Source of the DNA: Erodium maritimum
Lineage: Eukaryota; Streptophyta; Magnoliopsida; Geraniales; Geraniaceae
Direction: 5' to 3'
Assembly: GCA_963921825.1 (NCBI GenBank)
Contig: OY997590.1
Span: forward strand, 38,643,039-38,707,038
DNA length: 64,000 nt
Shown: piece by piece, positions 3,373 through 43,679 of the stretch
How positions within the stretch are numbered: position 1 is the stretch's first letter
Layout of the letters: each line of letters opens with the position of its first letter
The notes under the pieces: model-generated
Told to the model about the DNA's origin: nothing
The model's input: the letters and a program-made list of their open reading frames with translations, nothing else
Database searches by the model: none
Made by a program: the position numbers and the translations under genes

Positions 3373-5119
3373 TGTAAGAACCGCTCCCGGTCAACGCCAG
3401 TCAAATCTGCGAAAAACAGGAAAATTTAAAATTTTTAAGCAGACACTTAATTAAACCTAAGATTGACCCCGAGGGTCATACCGGACTTAAGTTGACCCCG
3501 TTATCGACCAAAGTGAGTTCCGGGGGACTCAGGGCAACTTTCTGATCAGTTTGGGAAATGTTGACTTTTCGTTGGAAAAGTCAACCGAGCGACGTTTTGG
3601 TCCATTCGAGGACCGTTTTGGATCCAAAAAGCTTAGCCGTCGTCGCAGCGGTCTTAGTTGAGCCGTTTCCTTGTAGCCTGTCAAGTTTCGTAATTTCTTG
3701 GAAAAAGTGCCCGTTCGGGCCCCGAAACGTCCGAATTTCACGAATCTGATTGGAAAATATCTAGGAGATGTTTTCCCAAAAAGGTGTGGGACCCACCTTG
3801 CCACTTGTCAAACAAGTGGTGGTGTTAGGTGTGGGACAAGACAAGGGAGACTACCATTAAGGGTGTGGCTGACCATGTGTTTCAAAAAAGGGAAAAAATA
3901 GAAAGAGAAAGGAGATAGTTTTAGAGAGAGAAGGAGAAGGAGAAGAAGAGAGAAAAGAGAGGTTGCTAGGGTTTGGGCTACTATTCACGAGCATCAAGCC
4001 ATAAGTTCGTCTCAACGATGGTAGATTCGAGCTCACATCGTCTTCCTCTACGGTAAGCACCTAATCGATCTTCGTTTTGGTTAAGTTCAAAAGTTATGGT
4101 TTGGTTAAAATGAGTAATTTATGGTGGAAATGAGGTGTGGGGATTGTTGGAGACGTTTTGGAGGGAAGAGGCACGTTTTCCGGTGACCGGGAGCTCGGTG
4201 GGGAGCTCCGGCCACCATGTAGGGTTGCCAGCCACCATGTGGGGTGGTTGGTCGGAGCTAGGGCCGGCCACCACCATGGTGGGCCGGGCCCAAAAGGCCC
4301 TAGACACCCACGACCATGGTTGGCCGGGTGGGGCCCACTTGCTCGGGTGCTCAGGTTTTGTGTTCGGGTGGTTTAGAACGTTCCCCGGATCATTAATCTA
4401 CAACCGGATCGAAAATTGGAATTAAATTGTGAAAGTTGTAATTGACGGGTTTAGAAACTTTAAACGTTAATTAAATGACTCGGAAGTCGGAATTCGATTC
4501 CGTCGAGTGCCTAGGAACCCTTGAATTATTCTAAGACCGTAGAAACGAAAACGGGAATTTTCGGAGCCCCGGAAGGGCGTTTCCAAAACCCGGGCAGATT
4601 CGCCATGTCGGGCGAACCGGGCTTTTCCGGGTCCAATATCGACAATGTCGAGTAATTGGGGAGTTTGGGAGTGATCGACATTGTCGGGGTTACCTTTGGG
4701 CGTCAAGTTTATTAAATTCCAGTTTGTGTCTACGAACTTATAAGTATTTAAATTGTGGTCATATTAGATCGTGCTGCAGACCGAGGGAAAGGAAAGCTAG
4801 GCGAGTGACTGAGATCACGCCGGAGCTTGTTGGTTAGCTTTTGGAGAAAACATACAAGGTAGGGAAAAGTAGTCGGATCTCGGCCCTGACTAGGGAAAGT
4901 TAACAGTAGAAATGCATGTGACACTTGGGGTGTCGTGGGTTAAGTAGGTTATCGAAGATTGGAAATGCATGTGACACTTAGTAGTGTCGTAGGAGCAGTG
5001 AACTTATCGATATTAGAATTACTGGAGGCATATGACCATGCCCGGAGGTTGATTATGAACTTGTTGATATTAGAACTGCTGGAGGCATTGGTTATGCCCG
5101 GAGGTTGATTGTGTAGTTG

Positions 5120-5490
5120 TGTCTTGGGTGGCCATGAGAGCCCGTGTTTTACTGTTGGTGTCTTGGGTGGCCATGAGCGCCCGTGGGGTTGTTGAGCCCG
5201 TGAGTTATTGTCGGTGTGTCTTGGGTGGCCGTGAGTGCCCGTGGGGTTGTTGAGCCCGTGAGTTATTGTCGGTGTGTCTTGGGTGGCCGTGAGTGCCCGT
5301 GGGGTTGTTGAGCCCGTGAGTTATTGTCGGTGTGTCTTGGGTGGCTCGTGGGGTTGTTGAGCTCGTGAGTTATTGTCGGTGTGTCTTGGGTGGCCGTGAG
5401 TGCCCGTGGGGTTGTTGAGCCCGTGAGTTATTGTCGGTGTGTCTTGGGTGGCCATGAGTGCCTGTGGAGTGTTGAACTTGTGTTGTTGCT
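5120..5490 (+). repeat. 58-bp minisatellite array inside unit A
   Basis: About six tandem units built on GTGTCTTGGGTGGCC, GTGAGTGCCCGTGGGGTTG and TTGAGCCCGTGAGTTATTG, with a period close to 58 bp and small length variants. The same unit, at 58-60 bp, occurs in the other copies of the family (inverted in 6900-7250 and 11180-11625, forward in 38330-38730, inverted in 43680-44420). It is non-coding. Confidence 0.85.
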
Positions 5491-5528
5491 ATTTGTTGAA
5501 CTTGTTTGTGATTGTGATTGTGGTTACC

Positions 5529-5858
5529 TGAGTGAGAGAGGTTACTGAGACAGGTCGACCGCCTGGCCCGACAGGGATCGGAAAAGCGCGTGAGTGAGAG
5601 AGGTTACTGAGACAGGTCGACCGCCTGGCCTGACAGGGATCGGCGAAGCGCGTGAGTGAGAGAGGTTACTGAGACAGGTCGACCGCCTGGCCCGACTTTG
5701 TGTCGGGGAAGCGCGTGAGTGAGAGAGGTTACTGAGACAGGTCGACCGCCTGGCCCGACAGGGATCGGAAAAGCGCGTGAGTGAGAGAGGTTACTGAGAC
5801 AGGTCGACCGCCTGGCCTGACAGGGATCGGCAAAACGCGTGAGTGAGGGAGGTTACTG
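5529..5858 (+). repeat. 62-bp minisatellite array inside unit A
   Basis: Five to six tandem units of about 62 bp, each containing GTGAGTGAGAGAGGTTACTG followed by a block with the 8-bp palindrome GGTCGACC. Units are nearly identical, which suggests recent homogenisation. Related units lie inverted in unit D (43320-43640), and a single degenerate unit lies in the nested copy near 6640-6700. Confidence 0.85.
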
Positions 5859-6062
5859 AGCAGCTGGTATGCGATCCTTTGTGATCTTGTTTGGTGTGCG
5901 ATCCTTTGTGATCTTGGGTATTGCGTGGTTGTCTGTCGTGTCTTTGGAGGAGATCGTCAATCGTTGTGTCGGGTCTACATTACGTGTTCGAGGTTGAGTC
6001 GGTTGAGGAATGTAACAGTGGGTGTGTGTCAGTCGGAGTACTTGAGTTGGGGATAGTGATCC

Positions 6063-9000
6063 TGTCACGCCCCAATTTCAGTAAACCGAACTCGGGACGC
6101 GAACGTTTAGTTATAAGAAAACACTTTGAAACCAATTCCATTAAAACACTTTACAATACCAGTTTAGTTCAACAAAAGATAATTAAAAATCAAAATAAAA
6201 CGTCCCACAAGCGGACAAAAGCGAGGTATCCGTCGCTAGACTAAAAAGTAACCCGGACTCCCGCCCCTAGCTCTTCAAGCTTCAGAAGCTCACCTAGTCC
6301 GACCTGCGACAAGTACCTGTAGGAAAAGCAGCTAGGGGTGAGCGTTCGCTCACCACCACGGATAACAGACTGACTACGGCATAATTAGCAGACAATGCCG
6401 GTAACACCAATAATAAAGTCTACACCGGGGGACACTGTTCCCAACCCAAGGACTTTGACTGATCATACACCCACTGTTACCTTCCTTGACCAACTCAACA
6501 CTTTGACACGTAAAGTAGACCCGACACAACGATCACGACCTCTCCCAAGGACTCGAAAGAAACGACGCAACACCAAACAAGATCACAAAGGATCGCACAC
6601 CAAAAACAAGATCACAAAGGATCGCAAACCAGCTGCTCAGTAACCTCCCTCACGCCCTTTACCGATCTCATCAGGTCAGGCGGTCGACCCGTTGCATTTC
6701 CTCGACACAAAGTCGGATCAGACACTCACAACCACTGAACCACACACGCGCGGCCAGGACCTCTTTACTGACGGGCGGGCCCCCTACCCTGTCTGAACAT
6801 GCAGACGCGTGTGATCGAGGACCCCCGTTTAATGAAGCAGGCCCACAACCTCAGGTAACCACAATCACAATCACAAACACAGTTCAACAACAGCAATAAC
6901 ACAAGTTCAGCACTCCACAGGCACTCATGGCCACCCAAGACACCAACCCTAAAACACAGACTCAACAGCCCCACAGGCACTCACGGCCTCCCAAGATACA
7001 CCAACAGTAACTCACGGCTCAACGACCCCACGGGCACTCACGACCACTCAAAACCACCAATAGTAACGACACGGGTTCACAACCCCACGGGCACTCACGA
7101 ACACTCAAAACCACCAATAGTAACGACACGGGTTCACAACCCCACGGGCACTCACGGCCACCCAAAACACCAAACCTAAAACACCAAAACGACAACACGG
7201 GCTCTCATGGCCACCCAAGACTCAGCAATAGTAACACGGGCTCTCAAGGCCACCCAAAACTCAACAACAATTAACACACAACAACCTCCGGCATATTCGA
7301 TGCCTCCAACAGTCCTAAGATCACTAGTTTCACAAACAACCTCCGGGCATGGTCATATGCCTCCAGTAAATCAATTATCGCTAAGTTCTCTGCTCCTACG
7401 ACACTACTAGGTGTCACATGCATTTCCAATAATCGCTACGTTCCCGTATTATGCAATTCTAATATTCGCTAACCTACTCAACCCACGACACCCCAGTGTC
7501 ACATGCATTTCTACTGTTAACTTTCCCTAGTCAAGGCCGAGATCCGGCTACTTTTCCCTACCTCAACTGAAGAGCAACCGCTATGTTTCCTAGCTGCTGA
7601 CGTTCTAGCTCGCTACCTCCAGGCTTCACTTCGATCGAAGCCAGACGCTAAAGATAAAACGAAAGCCATAATTAGAGTCGGTTCCCAGGTTAATTTAAAG
7701 GTGACGATTAATCCAGTTTAAAACCGACAGTTGTCCTTTAAACTCGAGCGGGATAAAAGTGGGTTCACGGCGAATCGGGTATGAGTACCTGAGCACCGAA
7801 ACCGGTGCATGCGAGGCACGGTCCCAATGCACGAATCCCGAGGTCCGATTCAGCGGTCCGCCTTTGTTCCTTTTAAAACCCAATTAGCAGTCCATTTTAC
7901 CCAGAGTTCCAGAGTCGTTCCCAATTCCGATTAATAACCCTTTTTCAAAACAGAACGGTTTTTGTTTTAAATCAAATTCCCTTTTATTTCAAATCTGTTT
8001 CTGTTCCGATCTTTTGAGCCCAAAAAGAATTAAGTTCGGTTTTTGAACAACCGTCCCTAAATCCCGTTTACAAATTAGATTCTCAACTCCTCGATTTAAA
8101 ACCGTTTTTTAAAACCGAATTGATTTTAATTCGTTTTTATTTTAAATCCCCTTTTTCTTAAATCGGATTTTCGTTTTACAACCTTTTCTTTCCAAAACCT
8201 TGATTTTGATTCCAACTAAAGCAGATCCAAAAACTGATTTTGATTTAACATATTTCCCTTTTTAATTCAAAAACAGTTCCAAATATTAATCGATTTCATT
8301 AGCAGGTTTATCCAAATATTAATCGATTTCATTAGCAGGTTTAACAGATATTGGTTCCCTCAACAGATCCAAATTAACTTGAAACGAACAGCACGGGAAC
8401 CGAAAAAGAGGGGCTCGGTTTTGAAACCGGCCGGCCACCGACGGAGACGCCGCCGGCGACCAAGGCCTTAGAGGTCGTGAATCTAACCGTGAAGGGGAGA
8501 ACAACGGCGGACTCTCGGGAGAGAGGAGGACGGCGCCGGCGAGTCCGTCTCGGCTCTGGCCGTGCACGGCGACGGCGTGGAGGCGCGACGGAGCTCGGGA
8601 CGGCGGCGGGTTGAACGAGAGATGAGGAAAGGGAGGTCGCTGGCCGGAGACGGAGAGGGAGACGGGGTCGGAGATGGTGGTTCGAGGCGCGGCGGCGTTG
8701 GCCGTGAGAGGAGAGAAGGCGAGGGAGAGGACGGCCGGATCAGCCTCGGAGACGGGGAAGGACAGAGAGGCGGTGACGGGCTCGGTGGTGGCGTGGTTGG
8801 GCGGAGATGGGGGCTCGGTGGTGGCTGGACGGAGAGGGGAAAGGAGACGGGGGTGGCGTGGTCGGAGAATCGGACGGAGGAGAAGACGGCGGCGAAGGGG
8901 AGATCGGAGAGGCCGGTTTTCGGCGAGGTGAGATGGCGAGGGGAGTTGGGTCGGCAGAGGCTCGAAGAAGTCGGAGAAGAAGGAGTGAGGGAGGTCGGCT

Positions 9001-9272
9001 TGGGATCGGGAATCAGAGGAGAAGAGGCTGCGAAAATTAGGGTTCAAACCCTAATTTTGGCCTTTTATACCCAAGCCCTCAACCGGCTTGGGCCTCTGAT
9101 CGGGTCAGCCGGGATTGGGCCTCCGCGCTGGGCCTGGTCCGAGTCTGAGCCTGTTTCATTTTTTTTTTGACTTTCTTTTTGACTTTTCTTTTTGACCCAC
9201 TTGTTTACAAAAGTTTACCTCCAAGTTTCGAATTTCAGTTTACTATTCTTTTAAAAAGAAGTGGGTTTTACA
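6063..9272 (-). mobile_element. Giant solo-LTR-like unit A2, nested inverted in unit A
   Basis: Read on the minus strand, it begins TGTAAAACCCACTTC and ends GGGGCGTGACA. It is flanked by a perfect 5-bp duplication GATCC (6058-6062 and 9273-9277), and removing it restores the unit A sequence seen in the related copy at 36711-39978. Length is 3210 bp. Its last 0.5 kb matches the 3' end of unit A in inverted orientation, so the composite carries a large inverted repeat. The first 0.9 kb differs from unit A and carries a TATA box and GC-rich leader. No protein domains are present. Confidence 0.8.
8390..9069 (-). promoter_or_regulatory. TATA box and GC-rich leader of unit A2
   Basis: On the minus strand a TATAAAAG box (plus-strand positions 9062-9069) is followed by a CpG-rich leader of about 650 bp, in sharp contrast to the AT-rich surroundings. 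A 242-codon frame (9047-8319) opens after the box but is Pro/Ser/Arg-rich, low in complexity and open on both strands, so it is more likely leader RNA than protein. The matching region in unit D (45540-46310) shares blocks such as GACGGCGCCGGCGAGTCCGT. I read this as the U3/R promoter part of the LTR. Confidence 0.45.
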
Positions 9273-9644
9273 GATCCCCGGTGTTGAGTTTGTTGTTGGT
9301 GTTACCAGCATTGTCTGCTAATTATGCCGTAGTCAGTCTGTTATCCGTGGTGGTGAGCAAACGCTCACCCCTAACTGCTTTTCCTACAGGTACCGGTCGC
9401 AGGTTGGACTAGGTGAGCTTCCGAAGCTTGAAGAGCTAGGAGCGGGTTTCTTGGATTACTTTTGAGTCTAGCGACGTATACCTTGCATTTTGTCCAATTG
9501 TTGGGACGTACCTTTAAGTTGTAAATGATTATTTTTGATGAACAAATGATGATTTTAAGGTGATTTATGTAAAAGGTTTCAAAATGTTTTATTGTTTTAA
9601 ACGTTCGCGTCCCGAGTTCGGTTTACTGAAATTGGGGTGTGACA

Positions 9645-10132
9645 TGTAAAGTGTTGATAAAAAAACTATCCAGATATAATTTCTTTTTATTCTCGAAATA
9701 ATTTATTTTTTCTTGCTTTAAAACATATTCACCACTGATCTTGATAGAAATCCCTTGAAGAACCAAAGATATGACGTAAGTTTTAAGCCAATCGAAATTC
9801 AAACGAAGCGGAAAAAATTAAATCATGTTTGGTTTTGAAAAATGAGGTGATAAACCTATTGTCCATTGTTGATAAAATTAAAATAAAGTGTTGATAAAAT
9901 CAGTGTAAAGTGTTGATAAAACCAGTGTAAAGTGTTGATAAAAATTACCCACATATAATATTTTCTTTAAATCAGCACCGAAATATTTTTTTTCGTGCTT
10001 CAAAATATATTCATGACTGATCTTGATAGAAAGCCCTTGAAAAAACCAAAATATTGGTGCAAGTTTGAAGTCAATCGGAGTTCAAATGAAGCGGGAAAAC
10101 TTAAATTTGTGTATTGGTAAAAACAAATAATA
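9645..10132. repeat. Right half of the fold-back element
   Basis: The sequence resumes the GTGTTGATAAAA repeats interrupted at 3372. It contains two forward copies of a block ending AAACGAAGCGG or AAATGAAGCGGG (about 9700-9820 and 9985-10105), which are inverted relative to 2880-3010. This gives a palindromic element of roughly 1 kb before the giant insertion. Confidence 0.6.
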
Positions 10133-10247
10133 GGGTAAACTTCACCGCACTACCCTAAAAATACTTGCGTTTCATCTCACTACCCTAACAAAACTTTGTT
10201 CCACCTCACTACCCTAACGAAACTTTTAGTTGCACTTTCATACCCGC
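10133..10247. mobile_element. Left end of a MITE, truncated at unit B
   Basis: The segment begins GGGTAAACTTCACCGCACTA and contains three copies of a CTCACTACCCTAA-type motif. The start resembles the ends of the Mutator-like MITE at 29519. No matching right end appears after unit B, so it is probably the surviving left part of a larger element. Assignment is tentative. Confidence 0.35.
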
Positions 10248-10964
10248 TGTCACGCCCCAAATTCGGTAGAACCGAACCCGGAACGCGAACGGTGAAACAA
10301 TAAAACAATTTTCAAACCCATTTAAGTAAACCGCTTAAAATCACCATTTAGTTAATCAAAATAATCTTTTACAACTTAAAAGTACGTCCAAAACAAGCAC
10401 AAAAAACAAAGCGTACGTCGCTAAACTCCCAAAAACCCGGACTCCCGCTCCCAACTCTTCAAGCTTCGAGAGTTCCCCTAGTCTGTCTCGCGACCAGTAC
10501 TTGTAGGAAAAGCAGCTAGGGGTGAGTGTTCGCTCACCACCACGGGTACCAGACTGACTACGGCATACTAGCAGAAAATGCCGGAAACGCCAACAACAAA
10601 CCAAACACCGGGGACTACTATCCCCAAACTCAAGTAACCCGACTGTCACACGAAAACTGTTACTTTCCCCAACCAACTCAAACCCGGACGCGTAATGTAG
10701 ACCCGACACAACGGTTACGACCTCCACCAAAGACGCAAAAGATAACCACGCAACACCCAAGATCACTAAGGATCGCACACAACAAACAAGATCACAAAGG
10801 ATCGCACTCCAGCTACTCAGTATCGGTTGCTAACCGGCTGGGCTCGAGCCTGCCCCACGCAACTTTCCCCGAACGCAACCGGGCCAGGCGGTCGACCTGT
10901 TAGCGATATATTCCGCAATACTTCTCCGATAGCTAGTCGGAAGGGGAGCCGCCTTCCATCGCCG

Positions 10965-11165
10965 AAGAATGCACAACTTTACCGATGGTTAGTCGGAAGG
11001 CTAGCCAACCCCCACGCGCGCGACCACAGAACCCCTTTATTGTCACGCGGGCCCCCAACCTCGTCGCAAAAGAATGCACAACTTTACCGATGGTTAGTCG
11101 GGATGCTAGCCAACCCCCACGTGCGCGACCACAGGACCCCTTTATTGTCAGGCGGGCCCCCAACC
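10965..11165 (-). repeat. Two-copy direct repeat of about 100 bp in unit B
   Basis: The block GAATGCACAACTTTACCGAT with its following 80 bases occurs twice in tandem with a period of roughly 100 bp and few differences. It occupies the place where units A and D carry the 62-bp array. Confidence 0.7.
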
Positions 11166-11179
11166 TCAAGCAATCACAA

Positions 11180-11625
11180 TCAACACCCAAGGTTCAACAC
11201 CCCAAAGGCACTCATGGCCACCCACGACACACCAACAGTAATACACGGGTCAACACCCTAAAGGCCCACATGGCCACCCACGACACACCAACAGTAACAC
11301 ACGGGTTCAACACCCCAAAGGCACACCTGACCACCCACGACACACAAACAGTAAAAACACGGGTCCAACACCCCAAAGGCACACCTGACCACCCAAGACA
11401 CGCAACGGTAAAATACGGGTTCAACTCCCCAAAGGCACACTTGACCACCCACGACACACAAACAGTAAAAACACGGGTCCAACACCCCAAAGGCACACCT
11501 GACCACCCAAGACACGCAACGGTAAAATACGGGTTCAACTCCCCACCGGCACTCATGGCCACCCAAGACACACAACGGTAAAATACGGGTTCAACTCCCC
11601 ACGGGCACTCACGGCCACCCACAAC
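11180..11625 (-). repeat. About 60-bp minisatellite array inside unit B
   Basis: About seven units of the family minisatellite, recognisable by CAACACCCCAAAGGCAC and CACCCACGACACACAAACAG. Because the unit is close to a multiple of three and lacks stops, long frames appear on both strands (10985-11581 and 11667-11212); these are by-products of the repeat, not genes. Confidence 0.85.
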
Positions 11626-13392
11626 CACAAACAATTCAATCAACCTCCGGGCACAACCAAATGCCACCAGTATTTCTATTGTTCGATAAGCTCACTTATC
11701 CTACGACACTACTAAGTGTCACATGCCTTTCTATTGTTCGATACGTTCTCGTATCATACGACACCACTAAGTGTCGCCTGCATTTCTAGTGTTCGATAAA
11801 CTTACTTATCCTACGACACTACTAAGTGTCTCATGCATTTCTACTGTTAACTTTCCTTAGTCAAGGCCGAGATCCGGCTACTTTTCTCTACCTCGTAACG
11901 CTTTCCCAAAAGTCCACGCTCAAGCTTCGGCGTGCTCGCGATCACTTGCCTAGCTTTCCCTTGCCGCGGTCCTCGGCACGATCTAATAAGATCACAATTA
12001 AACACTTTTTAAGTTTGCAGACAAAGCTGAATTTTATTGAATTCGACGCCCAAATTCAACCCCGACAATGTCGATCACTCCCAAACTTCCCAATTACTCG
12101 ACATTTTCAATAATGGGTCCGGAAAGGGCCGATTCGCCCGGCTCGGCGAATCTGCCCGGGATTGGAAAACGCCCTTCCGGGGCTCCGAAAATTCCCGTTT
12201 TTGTTTCTACTATCTTAGAATAATTCAAGGGTTCCAATGCAATCGACGGAATCAATTTCCGACTTCCGAGCAATTTAATTCGCGTTTAAAGTTTCTAAAC
12301 CCGTCATTTCCAACTTTCACAATTTAATTACAAAATTCGTTTCGGGTGTGGATTAACGACTTGGGGATCGTCCTAAACCACCCGAACACGAAAAACCCGA
12401 GACCCGACACGTGGGTCCCACCCGGCCACCCTAAGCCGTGGGTGGCTGGACCGGTTCACCACCATGGTGGCCGGTCCTAGCTCCGGCCAGCCACCACCCA
12501 CGGTGGCCGGAGCTCCCCCAAGCCTCCGGTCACCGGAAACCGATCATTTTTCGCCCCCCAAAACGCCTCCAACGAACCTCACACCTCAACTCATCCATAG
12601 TCTACTCGTTTCAACCCAAACCCTAACTTTTAAACATATCAAAACGAAAATCGAATAGGTTCTCACCGTAGGGAATGATGACGGGAGCTCGATTCTTCAA
12701 CCGTTGAGACGATCCGTTGGTTGGATCGTCGGGAAATCCCAAAACCCCAACACTTTCTCCTTTCTTTTTCCTTTTCCTTCTCTCCTTCTTCTCTCTTCTT
12801 TCTCTCTCTATTTTTCTCCTTTTTTATCAATATGGCCGAACACTCCAACTAGTCTCCCTTTTGTTTTGTTCAAAAATAACAACTCCACCTCTTAATTACC
12901 AAACTACCACTCATTCTTCTTTTTCTTTAATTTAAAAACCAACCACCATCACATTTCTGACAAGTGTCTTGTGGGTCCCAACCTTTAGAAAAATATCTTT
13001 GTAGATAATTTTCTGTCCGATTCGCGAAATTCGGCCGTCTCGGGCCCCGAACGGGCCCATTTTCCAAGAAATTACGAGATTTCACGTGCTATAAGGAAAC
13101 GGCCCAACTAAGACCGTTGTAACGACGGCTAAGCTTTTTGGATCCAAAACGAGCCTCGAACGGACCAAAATGTCGCTCGGTTGACTTTTCCAGCAAAAAG
13201 TCAACATTTCCCAAATTGGTCAAAAAGTTGCCCTGAGTCCCCCAGAACTCACTTTGGTCGATATCGGGGTCAACTTAAGTCCGATATGACTCTCGGGGTC
13301 AATCTTAGGTTTAATTGAGTGTTTTCTTAAAAATTTTAAATTTTCCTGTTTTTCTCCGATTTGACTGGCGTTGACTGGGAGTGGTTCTTACA

Positions 13393-14128: not shown

Positions 14129-16101
14129 TAGGGCTGAGCAAAAATCCGACCATTACCGTAAACCGAGCGTCACCGGCCGTCCCCGTCACCGGAGAACCAG
14201 GAACCGGCCTAACCACGGGTGGACATGGGTTGGAAATACCTGAACCGGCGCAGTCAACGGGTTTGACCGGTTTTCATACCAGAAAATCGATTATACCCGA
14301 ACCGGTCGATACTGTAGCAGGAATGGGTTGTGCTTCTCATGCATTTTGGGCCCGAGCAGATCAGGCCCGTTTTCGGCACTGGCGAAGCCCAAATCAGATG
14401 CCCGTGTCGCTGCTTTCTCAATTCTCAGCCGTCCGATCAAGAGGAGCGATCAATGCCGTTGAATTCTGATGTCGTTTCGCATTCAATGCGTGTCTGACGT
14501 CCTAACCTGGTCTCAGTCTCTCAGACGTGGTTCCCTTCCCCAAATCGAAACCCTAGCAGCCGAATTCTCTCTCTCTCGCGCGTCGAAGACAACCATGGCC
14601 ACACACAACGTCTCTCTCTCTCTCCTCTCAACGTTCGGATCACCGATTTTCTGTCAAGCTCAGCCCTCAGTCACTTCCCTTTCCCGTGACGCTATCGGTC
14701 CCTCTTCTCCTTCTCTCTCTCTCTCGTCCTCTCGTTCCTTCTCTCTCTCGACACAAGACTATGACCTTCTATTTAATCCGGTGGAGTGGCCGAATGATTC
14801 GAGGAAAGGAACTAAGGAAGAACACACATAACTGAGCTTACTGTGTTTTATTCAAAGGTATGACTATCAACACCATAAACTTCGTGAACGGTTAAATTTC
14901 ATGAACTTTGTTATGATGATTGATGAACACTGATTTTATTTCACTGTTGTAGGTTTGATGTGCATTTAAAGGGAAGGTGATTCAGGTGATGAAGGTATAT
15001 ATATTATTAACCCTAATGTGTTAAATTTCTTAATTTTTGTTTTCCCCTTGTGATGAACACTGATTTTAATTCACTTTGTTGTTGGTTTGATGTGCGAAGT
15101 TTAAAGGGAAGGTGATTCAGTTGAAGGTATAATTTCTACTAACCTTAACCCTAATATGTTAAATATACTTGTCATTGTTTGATTTTTGAATCGTAGACTT
15201 ATGGTTTATTAAAACTGGTTTGAAAAGGATTAATATGATTTCAAAGGCTTAAAACTGGTTTTAAAAGGATTAATATGATTTCAAAGGCTTCATATGATTT
15301 CAAAGGCTTAAAACTGGTTTTAAAAGGATTGATATAATTTCAAAATGCTTAATATGAGTTTGGAAGAAGCTGAATAGTTTTAAATTTTTAATTATTGTTT
15401 TCATTATTGCTTAATGGTTTTTTACATCCTTTTATTTTGCCTGGGAACACTAACTCAATCACTTTATTGCCTTATAGTTGTAGGTTTGAAGTTTGAGATC
15501 AGAAGAAGCTGAAGAACATGGGGAAGACCAAAGAGGTTATAAAATCAAAGGGAAAGGTATATCTAATCATTAAACTTTATGTTTTGGACGACCTTGAATC
15601 TGATTTTTTGGACGACCTTGAATCTGATTTTTTGTTGTAATAGGTCGATTTCAGTTTAGTTAAAACTGATTTTTTTTGTTCTACTTTTTGTGTTGTACAA
15701 CAAAAACGGTTTCTTAGACCGTGTGTGTAAAAGACGATGTTTTATATGATTATGAGGTATTAGTTGTAGGAATTGTTGTGTTTTGTTTGAATGTTTGAAG
15801 TATTTAAACTGAAATCAGTTTTATAATAGGCAGGTTTATGGAGTTAAGTTAAATTGTGTGAAATTAAGTTTGAATTGTAAGAATTAAGTTGAATATTTAT
15901 TTTAGTAGACTCAATAAGAAGCCCATTGGACCTGGGTTGGTTGGTTATAACCGTCCCCGGCCGGTAGTGAGTACGGGCGGTTATCGGCCTTCCCTTTAGC
16001 GACCGGTGATGGGCATGGGTACGGGTTTTATGTAACCGAAAAAAACGGTTTGGGTAACGGGTTTGGGATTTTGGACGGGTACTGGCCGATGCTCACCCCT
16101 A
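14129..16101. mobile_element. Non-autonomous hAT element, 1973 bp
   Basis: It begins TAGGGCTGAGCA and ends TGCTCACCCCTA, short inverted ends, and is flanked by a perfect 8-bp duplication CTCCCAGG (14121-14128 and 16102-16109), the hAT hallmark. Subterminal regions are rich in CCG/CGG-type motifs (ACCGGTCG, CCGGCCGG), which fit transposase binding sites. The interior has a CT-rich leader-like segment around 14560-14750 and a short degenerate tandem repeat at 15190-15350 (TTAAAACTGGTTTTAAAAGG). No transposase domain is visible, so it is probably a deletion derivative. Confidence 0.85.
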
Positions 16102-16923: not shown

Positions 16924-17109
16924 TTGTATGGGCCAACAAAAACATCTGATACCGAACTTCGATCGGCTTAGGTAATAAAAATGACGTCACAACCTTCGAA
17001 TACAATGGCGTTGAGAACCGGAGGAGAGAACTACAGCGCCAAACATGACCTCTCCTAAAAACCAAACCATGAAACAAAAGAATATCGTGTGTGGTGGCCT
17101 GGCTTTGCG
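16924..17109 (+). repeat. 186-bp flanking duplication, left copy
   Basis: This block, beginning TTGTATGGGCCAACAAAAAC and ending GGCCTGGCTTTGCG, recurs at 22501-22686 on the other side of the copia element, with two substitutions in 186 positions by my count. It is host DNA, not part of the LTR. It sits where a 5-bp target duplication is expected. Confidence 0.9.
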
Positions 17110-17110
17110 T

Positions 17111-17780
17111 TGTTGGGTTTGTTTCAATTAATTGGAACAAGGCCCAAATCCCATTTGGGGAAACTTAATCCCAAATGGAGATATGGTTTCTATATAGCTT
17201 TTAGAAATCAGATTTGGAAGTGTGAGTGCCTCAATTGTTGAGAGAGAGAAGCAAAAGGGAGAAGAAGAGGTGCAGATTTTTCTGCAGATTTCCAGTCCGA
17301 CCAGCCACGTTGAAGAGCACGATCGGAGGTTCATCCAAGGTCCGATGATGCTGATTTTTGGATTGAATGTTCTCCACATATAGGTCTTCAAAGTGGACGG
17401 TGGAATTTGAGTTTTTACGGTTAGTTCTTCAGATACACGAGCTTCAAGTTGGGCCACCAAGTTGGTGAGATTTATCTTCTTCTTTCTTGAGTTTTGTTGC
17501 TAGTTCCAACACTAGGTTGTGTTGAGATATTGTGTATGCCTCTAATTCAATTAGAGAGATATTGTACCCATTAAAGTTGCTAGTGGATGATTAAGAGGCC
17601 TAGAGGGTCCCGTGGTTTTTACTTCTCGTCTTGAGAAGGTTTTCCACGCTAAATCTTGTGTGCATTGTGTTTGGTGATTTGCTCTGTTTGTTGGTTTCCT
17701 ACTTGGTTTGCACAAGTGTGGGAGAATTGATTCCGCTGTGTTTACCATTTATCTGTTGTTATTTGGTATTCTCCCTATCA
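17111..17780 (+). repeat. copia 5' LTR
   Basis: Starts TGTTGGGTTTGTTTCAATTA and ends ATTCTCCCTATCA, about 670 bp, matching 21830-22499 closely. A TATATAGC promoter-like box lies in its first 100 bp, ahead of a GAGAGAGAGAAG leader. Confidence 0.93.
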
Positions 17781-17783
17781 GAG

Positions 17784-17795
17784 TGGTATCAGAGC
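17784..17795 (+). other. copia primer-binding site
   Basis: TGGTATCAGAGC lies three bases after the 5' LTR. It is the standard complement to the initiator-Met tRNA used by plant copia elements to prime reverse transcription. Confidence 0.93.
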
Positions 17796-17829
17796 CCGGT
17801 TGGCTTATTGGGTTTTTTTGTGTTAAACG

Positions 17830-20800
17830 ATGGAAGCTAATACAAGTAGAATGGTTAATCTGAATGGTTCTAATTATCATGTTTGGAGGGGCAAGATGGA
17901 GGATCTTCTTTATGTGAAGGATTATTATCTGCCGGTATTCAGTGAAGAAATGCCTGAGGGTAAAACTGATGGCGCTTGGAAATTATTTCATCGCCAAGTG
18001 TGTGGTTACATCATGAAATGGGTTGATGATAATGTTTTGAATCATGTTAGTGGAGAGACAGATGCACGCACTTTATGGAGCAAGCTTGAGCAGTTGTATG
18101 CTCGAAAGACAGGGAATAACAAGTTGTTTCTGATTAAGCAGATGATGAGTTTGAAGTATCAGGATGCGAGTCCTATGACATATCATCTGAATGTTTTTCA
18201 GGGTATTATTAATCAACTTGCAGGAATGGGTATCAAGTTTGAAGATGAGGTTCAAGGTTTGTGGCTTCTGGGTACTTTGCCGGACTCTTGGGAGACGTTC
18301 AGAACGTCATTGTCTAACTCGGCTCCAGATGGTGTTATTACCATGGATATGGCTAAGGGGTGTGTTCTAAATGAAGAGACGAGAAGAAAGTCACAGGGTT
18401 CCTCTTCACACACGGAGGTCTTGGTTACTACACAAAGAGGGAGGAGTAAGAGCAGAGATCCGAAAGGCAGAGGCAGAAGTAAAAGTAAGAACCGGTTTGC
18501 TGATGTTGAGTGCTATCATTGTGGTCAAAAGGGGCATATGAAGAAGCATTACCAGAAATTTAAAAGAGACACCAAATATGACAAAGGAAAGGGAAAGGAG
18601 CAAAATAGCGGTGGTGATGATGATAACACTGCTGTTATTACAGAGGAGTTCCTTGTTCTATGTGATGATGAAGAAACTGTCAATTTGGCTTCTCAAGAGA
18701 CCAGTTGGATAGCAGATAGTGGTGCCAGTATACATGCTACATCAAGGAGAGATTTGTTTTCATCTTATACAGTCGGTGACTATGGGAGTGTTAAGATGGG
18801 AAACAGAGACACGTCAAAGGCTATTGGCGTTGGAGATGTGAGCTTGGAGACGGAAAATGGTACACTCTTGGTTCTTAAAAATGTTAAACATATTCCTGAC
18901 ATTCGCTTGAACTTGATATCTGTAGGAAGGCTCGATGATGAAGGTTTTCATCATCACTTTGGTGATGGCAAGTGGAAGCTCACCAAAGGTTCTATGGTTG
19001 TGGCTAGAGGGAGCAAGTGTGCTTCGTTGTACATTACTCGAGCTAGAGTTTCCAATGGCATTGTTAATGCAGTTGAAGGTGAAGGTACAACTGAATTGTG
19101 GCACAGTCGGCTTAGTCACATAAGTGAGAAGGGGTTGATGATGTTGAGCAAGAAGAATCTTCTACCGGGGATGAGTTGCACACCATTGAAGAAGTGTGAA
19201 CATTGCTTGGCCGGTAAGCAAACAAGAATTTCTTTTAAATCATCTCCTCCTTCTAGAAAGCCAGAAATACTTGATTTGGTGTATTCTGATGTGTGTGGTC
19301 CTATGAAGAAAAGGACATTGGGCGGTGCACTTTATTTTGTGACTTTTATTGATGATCATTCAAGGAAGGTGTGGGCTTAAACCTTGAAGACGAAAGATCG
19401 AGCGCTTGAAGTTTTCAAGCAGTTTCATGCCCTAGTTGAGAGACAGACTGGGAAGAAGTTGAAGTGCATCAGGACAGATAATGGAGGTGAGTATTGTGGT
19501 CCTTTTGATGAGTATTGCAGGGATCAAGGTATTCAACACCAAAAGACACCTCCGAAGACACCTCAGTTGAATGGGTTAGCTGAGAGGATGAACAGGACAC
19601 TTGTTGAGAGGGTGAGATGTTTGCTTTCACAAGCAAGGCTACCGAGATCCTTTTGGGGTGAAGCTTAGAGTATAGTGGTACATGTTTTAAATCTCACACC
19701 TAGTGTTCATCTTGGGTTTGATGTTCCAAATAGAGTTTGGACAGGTAAAGACGTCTCCTATGATCATTTGAGAGTTTTTGGGTGCAAGGCATTTGTGTAC
19801 GTACCAAAGGATGAAAGGTTTAAGCTTGATGTGAAGACAAGACAGTGCATATTCATCGGTTATGGCTTGGATGAGTTTGGATACAGGTTTTATGATCCTA
19901 TACAGAAGAAGCTAGTTAGAAGCCGCGATGTGGTTTTTATGGAAGACCAGAACATTAAAGATATGGAGAAAGCTGTAGATCTTCCTCCATATAGTGATGA
20001 CTTGATTGACTTTGATATAGTTCCTTCTGCAGGTTTACAAAGTCAGGTTGAAGACGAAGTTCATGATGACAATCAAGATACAGGCAATGTTGACATTCCA
20101 ACAGAGGTTGAAATGGATGATGAAATCCATGAGCAGTTGCCAATACCTATTGATCCACCAGTTGTTCCACTCAGGAGATCTTCTAGAGATCGTCATCCTT
20201 CTTCAAGGTATTCTGTTGATGAGTATGTGTTACTAACTGACGGGGGAGAGCCTCAAAGTTATGAAGAAGCCGTTGAAGATGAGAACAAAGAGGAGTGGAT
20301 TGAGGCCATGCAAGATGAGATGAAGTCATTGCATGAGAACCATACTTTTGAGTTGGTTAAGTTGCTGAAAGGTAAGAGAGCTTTGAAGAACAAATGAGTG
20401 TACAGAGTAAAGCAGGAAGAGAATTCCTCACGCCCAAGATACAAAGCTAGATTGGTGGTCAAGGGGTTCAGCCAGAGGAAAGGTATAGATTTTGATGAAA
20501 TATTTTCTCCGGTTGTTAAGATGTCATCTATTCGTGTTGTTCTAGGTTTAGCAGCTAGTCTTGATTTGGAGATTGAGCAGATGGATGTGAAGACTGCATT
20601 TCTCCATGGTGACTTAGACAAGGAGATTTATATGGAGCAGCCAGAGGATTTCGCAGTAAAGGGGAAAGAGGAGTATGTGTGCAAGCTACATAAAAGTCTT
20701 TATGGTTTGAAGCAGGCACCAAGGCAGTGGTACAAGAAGTTTGAATCAGTTATGGGGGAGCAAGGCTACCAGAAAACTAAGTGTGACCATTGTGTTTTTG

Positions 20801-21816
20801 TGAAGCGATTATCTGATGATGATTTTATCATATTATTGCTATATGTTGATGACATGCTGATTGTTGGGAAGAATATTTCTAGAATTGACAGGTTGAAGCA
20901 GCAGCTGTGTCAGGTTTTTGCTATGAAGAACTTAGGTCCTGTGAAGAATATTCTTGGTATCAGAATTTCTCGCGATAGAGGCGCGAAGAAGGTGTATATG
21001 TCACAAGAGCAATATATTGAGAAGGTGTTGCAAAGGTTCAACATGGACAAGGCTAAAGTGGTTAGCTCTCCTCTTGCTACTCACTTTAAACTAAGCACAA
21101 AGGAGAGCCCTTCTACAGAGAAGGAGATGGAAGACATGGAGAGAGTTCCATACGCCTCAGCAGTAGGAAGCTTGATGTATGCTATGGTATGTACTAGACC
21201 CGACATTGCTCATGCAGTTGGAGTTGTTAGCCGTTTTCTGTCTAATCCAGGCAAAGTGCATTGGGATGCAGTCAAATGGATTATGAGATATCTCCGAGGT
21301 ACTTCTAGTTTTAGACTTACTTTCGGAAGTGGAGAACCTATGTTAGTTGGGTACTCAGATTCAGACATGGCAGGAGATGTTGATAGTAGAAAGTCCACAT
21401 CTGGTTACTTGATGATATTTGCAGGTGGAGCAGTTTCATGGCAATCAAGGCTTCAAAAGTGTGTAGCACTTTCTACTACAGAAGCTGAGTATATTGCAAC
21501 AACTGAAGCATGTAAAGAGTTGTTGTGGATGAAGAGATTCATACAAGAGCTTGGTCTCAAGCAGAAGCGGTATGTGGTTTATTGTGATAACTAAAGTGCA
21601 ATCCACTTGAGCAAGAATTCGACATTTCATGCAAAGTCGAAGCATATTGATGTGAGGTATCATTGGCTTAGAGATGCTCTTGAGGAGAAGTTGTTTGAGC
21701 TTGAGAAAGTTCACACGGATGAGAATGGATCCGATATGTGCACTAAGACACTACCGCGAGAGAAGCTTGAGGTATATTGCAAGATTGCCGGAATGGCAAT
21801 GCCCTCCATTTATTGA
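17830..21816 (+). mobile_element. copia gag-pol region
   Basis: Domains in order: a gag capsid-like segment (about 17830-18480); a zinc-knuckle region starting CYHCGQKGH (about 18510); an aspartic protease with WIADSGAS (about 18705); an integrase with its HHCC region (about 19098-19215) and FIDDHSRK (about 19348); a reverse transcriptase with QMDVKTAFLHGDL (about 20578) and YVDDM (about 20842); and RNase H with ALSTTEAEY (about 21466). The order and motifs identify copia, and similarity of the core to Tnt1/Tork is recalled from known sequences. A few breaks are present, so no intact polyprotein is expected. Confidence 0.93.
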
Positions 21817-21819
21817 AAC

Positions 21820-22499
21820 GGGGGAGATTTGTTGGGTTTGTTTCAATTAATTGGAACAAGGCCCAAAGCCCATTTGGGGCAACTTAAGCCCAAATGGAGA
21901 TAGGGTTTCTATATAGCTTTTAGAAATCAGATTTGGAAGTGTGAGTGCCTCAATTGTTGAGAGAGAGAAGCAAAAGGGAGAAGAAGAGGTGCAGATTTTT
22001 CTGCAGATTTCCAGTCCGACTAACCACGTTGAAGAGCACGATCGGAGGTTCATCCAAGGTCCGATGATGCTGATTTTTGGAGTGAATGTTCTCCACATAT
22101 AGGTCTTCAAAGTGGACGGTGGAATTTGAGTTTTGACGGTTAGTTATTCAGATACACGAGCTTCAAGTTGGGCCACCAAATTGGTGAGATTTATCTTCTT
22201 CTTTCTTGAGTTTTGTTGCTAGTTCCAACACTAGGTTGTGTTGAGATATTGTGTCTGCGTCTAATTCGATTAGAGAGATATTGTACCCATTAAAGTTGAT
22301 AGTGGATGATTAAGAGGCCTAGAGGGTCCCGTGGTTTTTACTTCTCGTCTTGAGAAGGTTTTCCACGCTAAATCTTGTGTGCATTGTGTTTGGTGATTTG
22401 CTCTGTTTGTTGGTTTCCTACTTGGTTTGCACAAGTGTGAGAGAATTGATTCCGCTGTGTTTACCATTTATCTGTTGTTATTTGGTATTCTCCCTATCT
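21820..22499 (+). repeat. Polypurine tract and copia 3' LTR
   Basis: The purine tract GGGGGAGA lies just before 21830, where the LTR begins with TGTTGGG. The LTR ends near 22499, followed by one base and then the right copy of the 186-bp duplication. Its last base differs from the canonical CA end of the 5' LTR. Confidence 0.92.
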
Positions 22500-22500
22500 G

Positions 22501-22686
22501 TTGTATGGGCCAACAAAAACATCCGATACCGAACTTCGATCGGCTTAGGTAATAAAAATGACGTCACAACCTTCGAATACAATGGCGTTGAGAACCGGAG
22601 GAGAGAACTACAGCGCCAAACATGACCTCTCCTAAAAACCAAACCATGAAACAAAAGAATATCTTGTGTGGTGGCCTGGCTTTGCG
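22501..22686 (+). repeat. 186-bp flanking duplication, right copy
   Basis: Second copy of the block at 16924-17109. After it the host sequence continues as CGATGACGACATTG, toward the TRM gene start at 23094. The left copy is preceded by different host DNA, so the ancestral site had one copy. Confidence 0.9.
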
Positions 22687-23093: not shown

Positions 23094-26000
23094 ATGGCAA
23101 AGAGATCAGATTTTGCACAGAAGCTGTTGGATGACCTGAGCTTGAGGAAGGAACGGATGGCTGCTGCTCAAACTTCAAATCATCATTCTAATAACACGAC
23201 CGCAACTGCCATAGGTACGCAAACAACATTCTCTACAAAATTTAGACATATTTTTCCTTTACATCTAAGTCTCACTCTGTTTTTCCTGTCAAAGAACTCT
23301 ATGCATAAACAATTTCGATAATAATAATAATAAAAAAGTAGCTCTTATCAGCTTGTTTAGAAACTGTCATTCCAAAAGCATCTAGTTTTATAGGGTTAAG
23401 ATTAGCAATAATCTAATATTATAAGTGCAACAAGATACTGATGATTCTCTTATCTTTGAAATAATGAGTCGCTTATCTTTCTATACACTATTTTTACTAC
23501 AAAGAAAAACACATTGGACACTCATTTAGTATTAAATAAGTGTCTGTAGGAGAACATTGCTTTGGCAAGCAAAAGATCAATAAAATTCGAACCAATGCAT
23601 GAAACTATGTGTGTGTGTGTGTGTTTTGTCATACAGATGCATATACACAGTCGAAGCAAACATACAGAGGATCCAGGGGAACAATAATACGTGTAAGTTT
23701 TAATACCTTGATTTTCTGGCACAAGGATTAAGCTAGATTGAGTCTTGCTTGATTCAATTGTCTGCAGGCTGGGAATACATACAACAGGCCTTTTGGACTA
23801 GTTGCTATTGAAGAAGCTTCGAAACATATCGTTCCTAGCTCAGCACAAACACGAGATCTCTCCATGGTCGTTGCTTTTTCCCTTGAGAATGGGGGGAAAC
23901 TCGGTCCCTCTGGAAACAATTCAATGCTGAATTTCCTGCAACAATTTGGAAAAGGGTCAGTGGAGTCAATAAATAGGCACCAGACTTGCACTACTTTTTC
24001 TCATCTTCACATCAAAGAAATATCACAAAAGCTGAACCAAATACTAAAAGCTTGCTCCAATGGCCACAAGCTTGATAGATATTCAGTAGAAGCCGGGAAG
24101 GAATTACTGAGAGGGGCTATTGACTTGGAAGAATCCCTCCTCAGGTTTGTAAACAGGCAAGAAGCTTCACATAGCAAAACTAGAATCACATTGCTTGAGG
24201 ATGATGATGATGATGACACAGTCATAACTACTGAGCAGAAGCAACTGGACCTGCCCATCTTCTCCTCTGACAAACCCTCAAGAAACCATCATACAACCCA
24301 ACAAGTCGCAAGCAGTGGTATCATGCAGCGGCTAGCTTATCCCAAAGGTGCTCCCCACTCCAACAATGAAAAGCAAGCTCTAATTACCTCAAATTCAGTT
24401 TCTCGCTCAGACTTGAAAAGTCGTCGACACAAGGACCACTCTAGCTCGTCCAAACCAGAAAAGGGGAAAGCTCCAAGTGTAATTGCTAAATTGATGGGAC
24501 TAGATGAACTTCCAGAAAATGTAGATCCAAAGTACACCACTCAGATAAAAATTATCTCTACCAGGGTTCCTGAAAAGAAGAAGAGAGATGCTCAGAGTCC
24601 GGCACAACAACCTATAAAACAGAAGGTCATGCATGACCACAAGAGACCTGTTCTTGAGGATGTAGCAGCAGAAAAGCATACCATTAACAAAGTATTTAGT
24701 GATAGAAAGCAATTATTGATGCACTCAGAAGGCACAAAGCCATACCTGAGCTCAACAGAGGCCCATGTCAAGATGAAGCATCACAGAAACATGGCCTTAC
24801 TGAACGTGAATACAGCAAGGCAAAAAGATGTTACAGAACAAGACAGTGAACAGGATAAAACAAAGCAAATCAAACTAAAAGACATAAAAAGCAAAACCAA
24901 GGAACCAGTCATCAAGGACGAGCTTCAGCAAATAACGCTACACAAATCAAAGACACCAGAAGCTGCAGTTATGATGCGAGAAAAGAAAGAACACAAGGTA
25001 AGCAAGCTTCACTTACAAAATAAGCAAAAGCCACAAAGCCATTTTGGGATCCGACAGCTGCAAAAATTTGAGCCTCTAGTAAAAGGAAAGGACCAGCAGC
25101 ATGCAAACCAAAAGATTCAGGTTAGAAAGCAAAAAGGAAATGAAATGATGTCCAAAGTTTTAGCAAAGTCCAACCATGATGCAATAAATATGCAGAAGAA
25201 GCAGCAACATATGAACCTAGTCAAACCTATGCTGAAAGGTCCTAGAGAACCTATCTGTCCAATGCCACCAAAATGGTTTCAAGAGAGAGGGCATCATGAA
25301 GGTTTTGGAAGGAAAGGAAGCTCAATAAACTTACTTGTCAGCATGAAAGGTTCAATGAAGAGGAACTTGGATCAGAATTCCTCAGTGAAATGTTTAGAAT
25401 CTGAACCAGACAGTGCGCCACCATTTCTTCAAGAGAAAGTTCACATACCTGTCATACAAAAGGTTAAAAATGGGGAAATGCATAAGACAAATGGAATTCT
25501 GAACAGCATGATAGAGCCATTGATACAGCAGAGTTCAACTCCACAAGAAAGAAAGCATGAAAAAGTTGGTGGCTCAAGAGGAGCAGAACAAGTGAGAGGC
25601 AGCAAGACCGAAGAAGCAGAAACACGAATCTTTAAATCCAATAAATCAGAAACAAGCGTTGAACCAACAAACAAGGCGCAACAACTGCACAGAGACAATG
25701 AGAAGGCCTCTGCTTTGTATGGTCCTAGAGGAGATGAATGCCTAAGCATAAGAGAGCAACAAACTGTAGCTGCAAGTGACAGTGTAAGCCCATTTATACA
25801 AGGATTTGAAAAGCTATTACTTATTTAAATTATGAGAGCTAGACCAATACTGTACAATATCAGTTCAATAACTATAATATCTAGTAATAACCTCACATAA
25901 GTTTGGTCCTATGTCTTGCAGAGCCAAAGGAAAACCCCAATAGCTGTTACAGACCAGAAAGGCCAAGCACACATTTGGGGTGGAGAAAAAAAACAAGTTT

Positions 26001-36710: not shown

Positions 36711-38329
36711 TGTAAGAACCACTCCCAGTCAACGTCAGTTAAATCGACGAAAAATAGGAAAATTTAAAAAAATTGGACAAACACCTAAATGAACCTAAAT
36801 TTGACCCCGAGGGTCATATCCGACTTAAGTTGACCCCGATATCGACCAAAGTGAGTTCGTGGGGACTCAGGGCAACTTTTTGACCAATTTGGGAAAGGTT
36901 GACTTTTTGCCGGAAAAGTCAACCGAGCGACGTTTTGGTCCGTTCGAGGCCCGTTTTGGATCCAAAAAACTTATCCGTCGTCACAGCGGTCTTAGTTGGA
37001 CCGTTTTCCTGTAGAACGCGAAGTTTCGTAAATTCTTGGAAATTGGGCCCGCACGGGGCCCGAGATGGTCGAATTTCGCGAATCTGATTGAAAAATATCT
37101 ACAAAGATATTTTTCTAACTTATGGGACCCACAAGACACTTGTCATAAATGTCGTGGTGGTTGGTTTTTAAAATAAAGAAAAAGAATTAAGAGTGGTAGT
37201 TTTGTAAATAAGAGATTGTTGTGTTTTTAAAACAAAATAAAGAGAAAGAGATGAGAGATGTTCGGCCATTTGAGAAAAATGAGAGAAGGAGAGAGAAAGT
37301 AGAGAGAGGAAGAAGAAGAAGGAGAAAAGAGAAGAGTTGTGTCGATTTCTCGACGATCCGACGGACGGGTCGTCTCAATTCTCGCGTATTCGTCATCCCC
37401 TCGTCATTCCCTACGGTAAGAACCCGTCTTTTTCTCATTTTGGAACGTTTGAATATTAGGGTTTGAGTTTAAATGGGTTGATTAAGGTTAGGTTAAGGAT
37501 TGGAGTTCGTTAGGAACGTTTTGGGGCGAAAAGGAACGTTTTCCATTGAGGCCATGTGGGGCCCACTTGGCCGGGCCTCGGGTTTTTCGTGTTCAGGTAG
37601 TCTTGGACGATCCCCAAGTCGATAATTCACACCCAAAACGAATTATGGAATTAAATTGTGAAAGTTAGAAATTTCGGGTTTAGAAATTTTAAACGCGAGT
37701 TAAATCGCTCGGAAGTCGGAAATTGATTCCGTTGATTGCATTGGAACCTTTGAATTATTCTAAGATCGTAAAAACGAAAACGGGAATTTCCGGAGCCCCG
37801 GAAGGGCGTTATCCAATCCCGGGCAGATTCGCTGAGCCGGGCGAATCGGGCCTTTCCGGGCCCGTTGTTGACAATGTCGAGTAATTGGGAAGTTTGGGAG
37901 TGATCGACATTACCGGGGTTGCTTTTAGGCGTCTAATTCTTTAAAATTCAGCTTTTCCTGCGAACTTAAAAAGTGTTCTAATTGTGTTCATGTTAGATCG
38001 TGTCGTCGACCGCGGAAAGGGGAGGCTAGGCGAGTGATCACGAGCACGCCGGAGCTTGGGCGTGGACTTTTGGGAAAGCGTTACGAGATAGGGAAAAGTA
38101 GCCGGATCTCGGCCTTGACTAGGGAAAGTTAACAATAGAAATGCATGTGACACCTAGTGGTGTCGTAGGATAAGTAAGTTTATCGAACACTAGAAATGCA
38201 GGCGACACGTAGTGGTGTCGTATGATACGTGAACGTATCGAACAATAGAAATGCATGTGACACTTAGTAGTGTCGTAGGATAAGTGAACATATCGAACAA
38301 TAGAAATACTGGTGGCATTTGGTTGTGCC

Positions 38330-38730
38330 CGGAGGTTGATTGAATTGTTTGTGTTTGTGGGTGGCCATGAGTGCCTTTGGGGAGTTGAACCCGTATTTTA
38401 CTGTTTGTGTGTCGTGGGTGGTCAGGTGTGCCTTTGGGGTGTTGAACCCGTATTTTACTGTTTTGGTGTCGTGGGTGGCCATGTGTGCCTGTGGGGTGTT
38501 GAACCCGTATTTTTACTGTCTGTGTGTCATGGGTGGCTGTGTGTGCATGTGGGGGTGTTGAACCCTTATTTTTAATGTTTGTGTGTCGTGGGTGGCCGTG
38601 TGTGCCTGTGGGGTGTTGAAATCGTATGTTACTGTTTGTGTGTCGTGGGTGGCCATGTGTGCATGTGGGGTGTTGAACCCGTATGTTATTGTTTGTGTTT
38701 GTGGGTGGCCATGAGTGCCCATGGGGAGTT
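38330..38730 (+). repeat. About 60-bp minisatellite array in unit C
   Basis: About seven units built on GTGTGTCGTGGGTGGCCATG and GTGTTGAACCCGTATTTTAC. Homologous to the 58-60-bp arrays of units A, A2, B and D. Confidence 0.85.
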
Positions 38731-38854
38731 GAGCCCGTATTTGGTTGACTGACGTGCCGAGTGGTAGTTAGTCGTGTTGTCGTATTCTTTTCCTTTCCTT
38801 TGCGGGGTATTGTGTGCCTTTTGGTTGTGACTGTGATTGTTCTGGTGGTACTGT

Positions 38855-39450
38855 TGAGCTATGCCCGATGGGTGTGTCGTAATCTCCAATGTGTGGTCGG
38901 TAAAGAGCAGAGGGATGTGGTCCCCGTAGGTGAGTAGCACCTTCCGGCGTGTGATTGGTAAAGTGCTAAGGTTAGAGCTGTGCCCGAGGGGTGTGTCGTA
39001 CTCTCCAATGCGTGGTCGGTAAAGAGCAGAGGGTTGTGGTCCCCGTAGGTGAGTAGCACCTTCCGGCGCGTGATTGGTAAAGTGCTAAGGTTAGAGTTGT
39101 GCCCGAGGGGTGTGTCGTACTCTCCAATGCGTGGTCGGTAAAGAGAAGAGGGTTGTGGTCCCCATAGGTGAGTAGCACATTCCGGCGCGTGATTGGTAAA
39201 GTGCTAAGGTTAGAGCTGTGCCCGAGGGGTGTGTCAAACTCTCCAATGCGTGGTCGGTAAAGAGCAGAGGGTTGTGGTCCCCGTAGGTGAGTAGCACCTT
39301 CCGGCGCGTGATTGGTAAAGTGCTGAGTCTAGATTTATGCCCGAGGGGTGTGTCGTACCCTCTGGTGCGCGGTCGGTAAAGAGCAGAGGGCTGTGGTCCC
39401 CATCAGGTGAGTAGCACCTTCCGGCGCGTGATCTGTAAGGTGCTGAGGCT
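38855..39450 (+). repeat. 119-bp minisatellite array in unit C
   Basis: Five units with a period of 119 bp, each containing TGTGCCCGAGGGGTGTGTCG, GTGGTCGGTAAAGAGCAGAG and GTGAGTAGCACCTTCCGGCG. It occupies the position held by the 62-bp array in units A and D, but is unrelated to it in sequence. Four minus-strand frames with the same start sit exactly 119 bp apart; they are repeat by-products. Confidence 0.88.
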
Positions 39451-39983
39451 TGTGGTTGTGGTTTGCGTGACTTTCATCACTTCTGTGTTGTGTTCTTTGA
39501 GGTCGTCATTACGGTGTCGGGTCCACATTACGTGTACGGGTGTTTAGTTTGGTTGGGGAAAGTAACATTTTTCGTGTGACAGTCGGGTTACTTGAGTCTG
39601 GGGATAGTAGTCCCCGGTGTTTTGTTTGTTGGTTGGTGTTTCCGACATTTCTGCTAGTATGTCGTAGTCAGTCTGGTATCCGTGGTGGTGAGCAAACGCT
39701 CACCCCTAGCTGCTTCTCCTACAGGTACTGGTCGTGAGACGGACTAGGAGAGCTCTCGAAGCTTGAAGAGCTGGGAGCGGGAGTCCGGGTCTTTGGGAGT
39801 TTAGTGACGTACGCTTTGGTTTTTGTCCGCTTGTTTTAGACGTATTTTAAGTTGTACAATATTATTTTGATTAACTCAAAGTGGTGATTTTAAGCGGTTT
39901 ATTAAAATGTTTGAAATTTGTTTATTTGTTTCACCGTTCGCGTTCCGGGTTCGCTTCTACTGAATTCGGGGCGTGACACCATA

Positions 39984-43640: not shown

Positions 43641-43679
43641 TCAGGTAACCACAATCACAATCACAAGCAAGTTCAACAA

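Follow-up and report, generated by a model that had tools for sequence, protein, structure and literature searches.

A Ty1/copia retroelement enclosed by a 186-bp direct duplication of host DNA that probably arose with its insertion

A Ty1/copia element at positions 17111-22498 of the analyzed stretch of DNA (64 kb, here termed the window) was found to be enclosed by two directly repeated copies of a 186-nt block of host sequence, 16924-17109 and 22501-22686, which are identical at 184 of 186 positions and differ at 16947 (T/C) and 17087 (G/T). The insertion scar is real and uncommon and probably of one-event origin, and we consider it likely that the 186-bp duplication was produced in the same event as the copia insertion. 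We infer a site that originally held a single copy of the block, with staggered joining of the element, fill-in and end-joining. The features concerned are as follows.

16924-17109, + strand: left copy of the host block, 186 bp
17110, + strand: extra T between the left block and the 5' LTR, readable as filler, as an unprocessed cDNA base or as a C-to-T change of the 187th host base
17111-17780, + strand: 5' LTR, TGTTGGG...CTATCA, its end set by TG/CA and by the primer site after it
17784-17795, + strand: TGGTATCAGAGC, primer-binding-site-like as read from the sequence, which we take to be of the initiator-tRNA type
17830-21816, + strand: gag-pol, a single frame with copia gag, gag-pre-integrase, SH3 and RVT_2
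21816-21829, + strand: AAACGGGGGAGATT, purine tract directly before the 3' LTR, presumably the polypurine-tract region
21830-22498, + strand: 3' LTR, TGTTGGG...CTATC, without the terminal A
22499-22500, + strand: extra TG between the 3' LTR and the right block, completing TATCTGTTGT
22501-22686, + strand: right copy of the host block, 186 bp
23094-23318, + strand: predicted open frame from ATG, likely the first coding exon of a neighboring plant gene, 407 bp from the right block

The original prediction described the blocks as the same but for two differences in 186 and the host sequence outside them as different on each side, and both points were borne out. When the block was compared by BLAST with all 64 kb of the window (word size 7, E-value cutoff of 1E-3), the two copies alone were returned, with an E value of 4E-94 for the block-to-block match, and beyond the outer block edges the left sequence differs from the right. 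The blocks had also been placed directly against the outer ends of the LTRs, which had to be corrected, since the T at 17110 and the TG at 22499-22500 intervene. No in-register microhomology was found at the block edges; a CGAT near both edges was considered as a candidate and dropped as out of register. The block pattern gave 0 matches in prokaryote and viral contig collections, a result of little weight given that these hold no plants by design.

The element has paired LTRs beginning with TG and copia-type gag and pol domains, profile matches being obtained in the order Retrotran_gag_2, Pol_BBD, gag_pre-integrs, SH3_retrovirus, and RVT_2. The domain search of gag-pol covered three separate pieces outside 19381-19674, the stretch in which the integrase core is expected. 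One reading frame is kept throughout gag-pol, with its last stop at 21814, despite four in-frame stops at 19378, 19666, 20395, and 21592, and because of these four stops the sequence of the present copy marks it as very likely dead. Six peptide patterns from the reverse transcriptase piece and the LTR pattern were unmatched in the viral contigs, as was a pattern of LTR end plus primer site in the prokaryote contigs; both are nonplant collections, and little weight is attached to these results.

At the left junction, the T at 17110 precedes the TGTTGGG of the 5' LTR, leaving the TG of the U3 end intact, and this single extra T may be an altered host base. At the right junction, the CTATC of the 3' LTR is followed by TG and then by the right block. 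The 5' LTR has a CA end: its last bases are CTATCA, the final A being 17780, and GAG and TGGTATCAGAGC come next. The 3' LTR lacks this last A, and since it reads CTATC and then TG, the terminal A was either lost or changed. This A would already have been absent from the U5 end when the element inserted. The 186-bp duplication is found together with a defective U5 end. A 5-bp target duplication is absent, the five bases before the 5' LTR being TGCGT and those after CTATC being TGTTG; if 22499 is read as an A-to-T change, the five bases after CTATCT are GTTGT, also unlike TGCGT. The missing 5-bp duplication is a trait of the insertion event and not of the kinship of the element. An ordinary Ty1/copia insertion shares the element anatomy, the TG start, and the domains but has a 5-bp duplication, whereas 186 bp and extra bases at both ends were observed here.

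The coordinated integrase complex of retroviruses makes its two joins 4 to 6 bp apart (passages of PMC2857682), and a spacing of 5 bp is given for plant LTR elements (passages of PMC11899658). The alternative that the block was an older tandem repeat would require the element to have landed at its exact boundary, which by simple arithmetic is 1 of 187 positions. This requirement, together with the missing 5-bp footprint, makes duplication at insertion the best reading. The single-copy ancestor and the duplication upon insertion, both part of the original prediction, are therefore retained as what we infer from boundary and footprint. According to the proposed mechanism, the ancestral site would have consisted of one block, running from CTCGCCCGA into CGATGACGAC, and an element cDNA of nearly full length would have been attached by its two ends to opposite strands of the target, at points some 186 bp from each other rather than 5. 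Host polymerases would then have filled both single-stranded stretches, giving a block copy on each side of the element, and at least the U5 end, with no terminal A, would have been sealed by host end-joining, in which a 2-base filler may have been derived from the LTR itself. The stagger may reflect two integrase cuts made without coordination, or else an existing pair of nicks that captured the cDNA. The 1 plus 2 extra bases and the missing LTR-terminal A are as expected from end-joining and so support this explanation.

A one-event origin can be reached by two routes, which share the likelihood given to it above about equally, and each taken singly falls short of an even chance. In the first, a serious possibility, the cDNA was ligated without integrase into a double-strand break that already existed and whose ends were staggered by about 186 nt, a route that has been suggested for tandem duplications arising at nick pairs. 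The non-host bases at both junctions speak for this route. The left T is identical to the base in front of the TG that opens the 3' LTR, and the right G to the base next to the CA that closes the 5' LTR, so that one unprocessed cDNA base may have been kept at each end, a coincidence with a chance of 1 in 16 that grants an A-to-T change at 22499. This reading of the right TG and its reading as copied filler are, however, mutually exclusive, and the nearly full-length element ends and the intact TG of U3 count against capture. In its most specific form, namely, germline entry of full-length plant copia cDNA without integrase by capture at a staggered break, with polymerase-theta-type sealing and a filler copied from the LTR, the proposal is rather unlikely. 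Germline capture of cDNA by such joining would resemble the entry of T-DNA.

In the second route, likewise a serious possibility, integrase joined the U3 end, and the U5 end, with its damaged CA, was attached at a distance of about 187 bp, either by integrase or by the host. The intact TG at the left and the CA without its A at the right are consistent with this, but an exact U3 join would require the T at 17110 to be an altered host base, where the right copy has C; this would raise the differences to three in 187. The terminal A may have been lost after insertion. There is also a retroviral precedent in XMRV: among 15 sites, 13 had duplications of 4 bp, one of 5 bp, and one, clone C-3, of 273 bp. 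In C-3, one LTR had also lost 5 bp, its CA included, a loss that in the view of the authors might have caused uncoordinated joining (passages of PMC2857682). Clone C-3 thus resembles the present site in combining a duplication far above normal with loss of CA at one LTR end; it differs in being a gammaretrovirus in a human cell line with the 5-bp loss at U3, whereas one base is affected here at U5, and filler goes unmentioned in the passages on C-3, whereas the present site has extra bases at both LTR ends. A staggered break with fill-in or an integrase-independent route had been predicted; both are retained, but with this precedent uncoordinated integrase fits equally well.

As for the filler, TATCTGTTGT at 22495-22504, which includes the right TG, recurs at 22469-22478, 26 bp inside the LTR. 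A 10-base match of this kind had a P value of 0.004 among 2,000 Markov-sampled flank pairs, in a test that was chosen after the junction word had been noticed. Control joins of window sequence reached 10 bases in 4, 12, and 22 of 2,000 cases when 50, 100, and 200 bp were searched, and among the 16 possible two-base fillers only TG gives a 10-base match, CA giving 9. The sequence match weakly suggests that the right TG may be filler copied from the LTR. Filler copied from sequence near the break has been described for plant end-joining (passages of PMC2686159). A copied filler at the left junction was unsupported: the 4-base match found within 50 and 100 bp was equaled in 1,408 and 1,758 of 2,000 controls and the 6-base match found within 200 bp in 989 of 2,000, with a P value of 0.89 among 2,000 Markov-sampled flank pairs.

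An older tandem repeat at whose boundary the element landed is improbable. Tandem duplications are reportedly a common class of plant insertion, to judge by the title of a 2014 paper by Vaughn and Bennetzen. Besides the exact boundary already mentioned, this reading meets the difficulty that an ordinary insertion leaves a 5-bp duplication, none of which is present.

The LTR pair (17111-17779 versus 21830-22498) aligned over 669 bp without gaps and with 15 differences, 5 transitions and 10 transversions, 9 of the 15 being T/G or A/C. A majority of transversions is unusual in the decay of plant LTRs; the excess had a P value of 0.008 if two-thirds transitions are expected and 0.15 if half are. 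An apparent clustering of mutations close to the left junction, where 36 bp hold 4 of the 15 differences, was dropped, as the P value was 0.32 by a scan and 0.07 for the first 74 bp. The LTRs would be 1.75 My old at a substitution rate of 6.5E-9 per site and year and 0.88 My old at 1.3E-8, and the blocks 0.83 and 0.42 My old at the same two rates, all with very wide limits. The divergence of the blocks (2 of 186) is lower than that of the LTRs (15 of 669), a point against a single event, but did not differ significantly from it (Fisher P = 0.55), in line with the compatibility that had been predicted, but two differences are too few for dating, and the blocks cannot be dated for that reason.

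The LTR differences bear on a further alternative, a quite improbable one, in which two insertions of the same family at the block edges on different chromosomes underwent unequal crossing-over, giving the order block-element-block with a hybrid element. This would yield the observed order without a long stagger and would account for the absence of matching 5-bp repeats, and the ratio of 10 transversions to 5 transitions is odd for simple decay. Since the transversion share is unexplained and a hybrid element is a possible source of it, crossing-over retains some weight. It requires two insertions 186 bp apart, however, and predicts host bases abutting both LTRs, so that three changes would be needed to accommodate the bases at 17110, 22499, and 22500. 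An assembly artefact is very improbable, as there is no N in the window, specific extra bases stand at both block-LTR junctions, and a mis-join duplicating one stretch would not give the two block differences, although a merging of two alleles could.

The duplication may be compared with known systems. Among the literature passages compared, the greatest length noted for a duplication at a plant copia element was the 9 bp of ATCOPIA21 in an Arabidopsis ddm1 rdr6 polIV mutant, termed unusually long there (PMC10462705); this is likewise a plant copia element, but its 9 bp were taken by the authors as proper integration. In a comparison made mostly of titles and abstract openings, no plant LTR element with a comparably long duplication was found. 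Passages of PMC11899658 describe LTR elements arranged in tandem, with duplications of 5 nt, and cite Li 2022 for an integrase-independent pathway. In mouse and human cells, tandem duplications result from the repair of breaks with protruding ends, and work in Arabidopsis and rice is cited alongside these studies (PMC5730883 and PMC8355091). Vaughn and Bennetzen (2014) and Schiml (2016) are likewise cited on tandem duplications from staggered breaks. As in those cases, synthesis on protruding ends would duplicate the target here, but the two copies are separated by 5.4 kb of retroelement DNA, and the protruding ends in PMC5730883 are 46 nt, far below 186, which counts against the analogy. In mouse zygotes, retroelement sequence truncated at both ends was captured at cut sites (passages of PMC4516963). 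There too, LTR-element sequence was joined without integrase hallmarks, but the inserts were truncated and the duplications were 4 and 10 bp, whereas the ends are nearly whole here. By analogy with the retroviral precedent, the scar would be of a type already known, offering a countable signature and not a new system.

Where a full-length LTR element is flanked by long duplications, it would point to an insertion made without coordinated integrase action. A genome-wide count of direct repeats of 50 to 500 bp at the outer ends of LTRs is feasible and would give the frequency with which plant retroelements enter by break repair. If integrase-free germline entry is common, such copies will have been missed by LTR annotation that requires 4- to 6-bp duplications.

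Because the likely coding exon starts 407 bp from the right block, the block would, by its position, belong to the upstream regulatory region or the 5' leader. The genes and elements of the window indicate that the host is a plant. The frame at 23094-23318 and an ORF at 23864-25828, which carries a VARLMGL motif and presumably represents the TRM/LONGIFOLIA-like plant gene family, appear to belong to one gene. A TGACGTCA palindrome, which we take to be a putative bZIP-type site, lies at 16982-16989 in the left block, and the right copy has the same. One copy of this upstream sequence stayed next to the gene, although insertion of the element without the duplication would have displaced it by about 5.6 kb; an effect of this retained copy on expression is conjecture.

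Other features were observed in the window. Among the 60 longest self-BLAST matches listed, 3373-13392 and 36711-45052 are related repeat blocks, often mutually inverted, and overlapping self-matches within the same 60 suggest tandem arrays there. A degenerate array of approximately 20-nt, AAAGGATTAATATGATTTC-like units occupies 15184-15381, and 445-937 matches its own reverse complement at 87% over 504 aligned columns, a possible large hairpin. Pieces of non-LTR-type reverse transcriptase (RVT_1) were found at 47154-47663 and 60566-61222, the second below the Pfam cut-off, and 57894-58985 is a piece of a glycosyl hydrolase family 17 gene, presumably of the plant beta-1,3-glucanase type.
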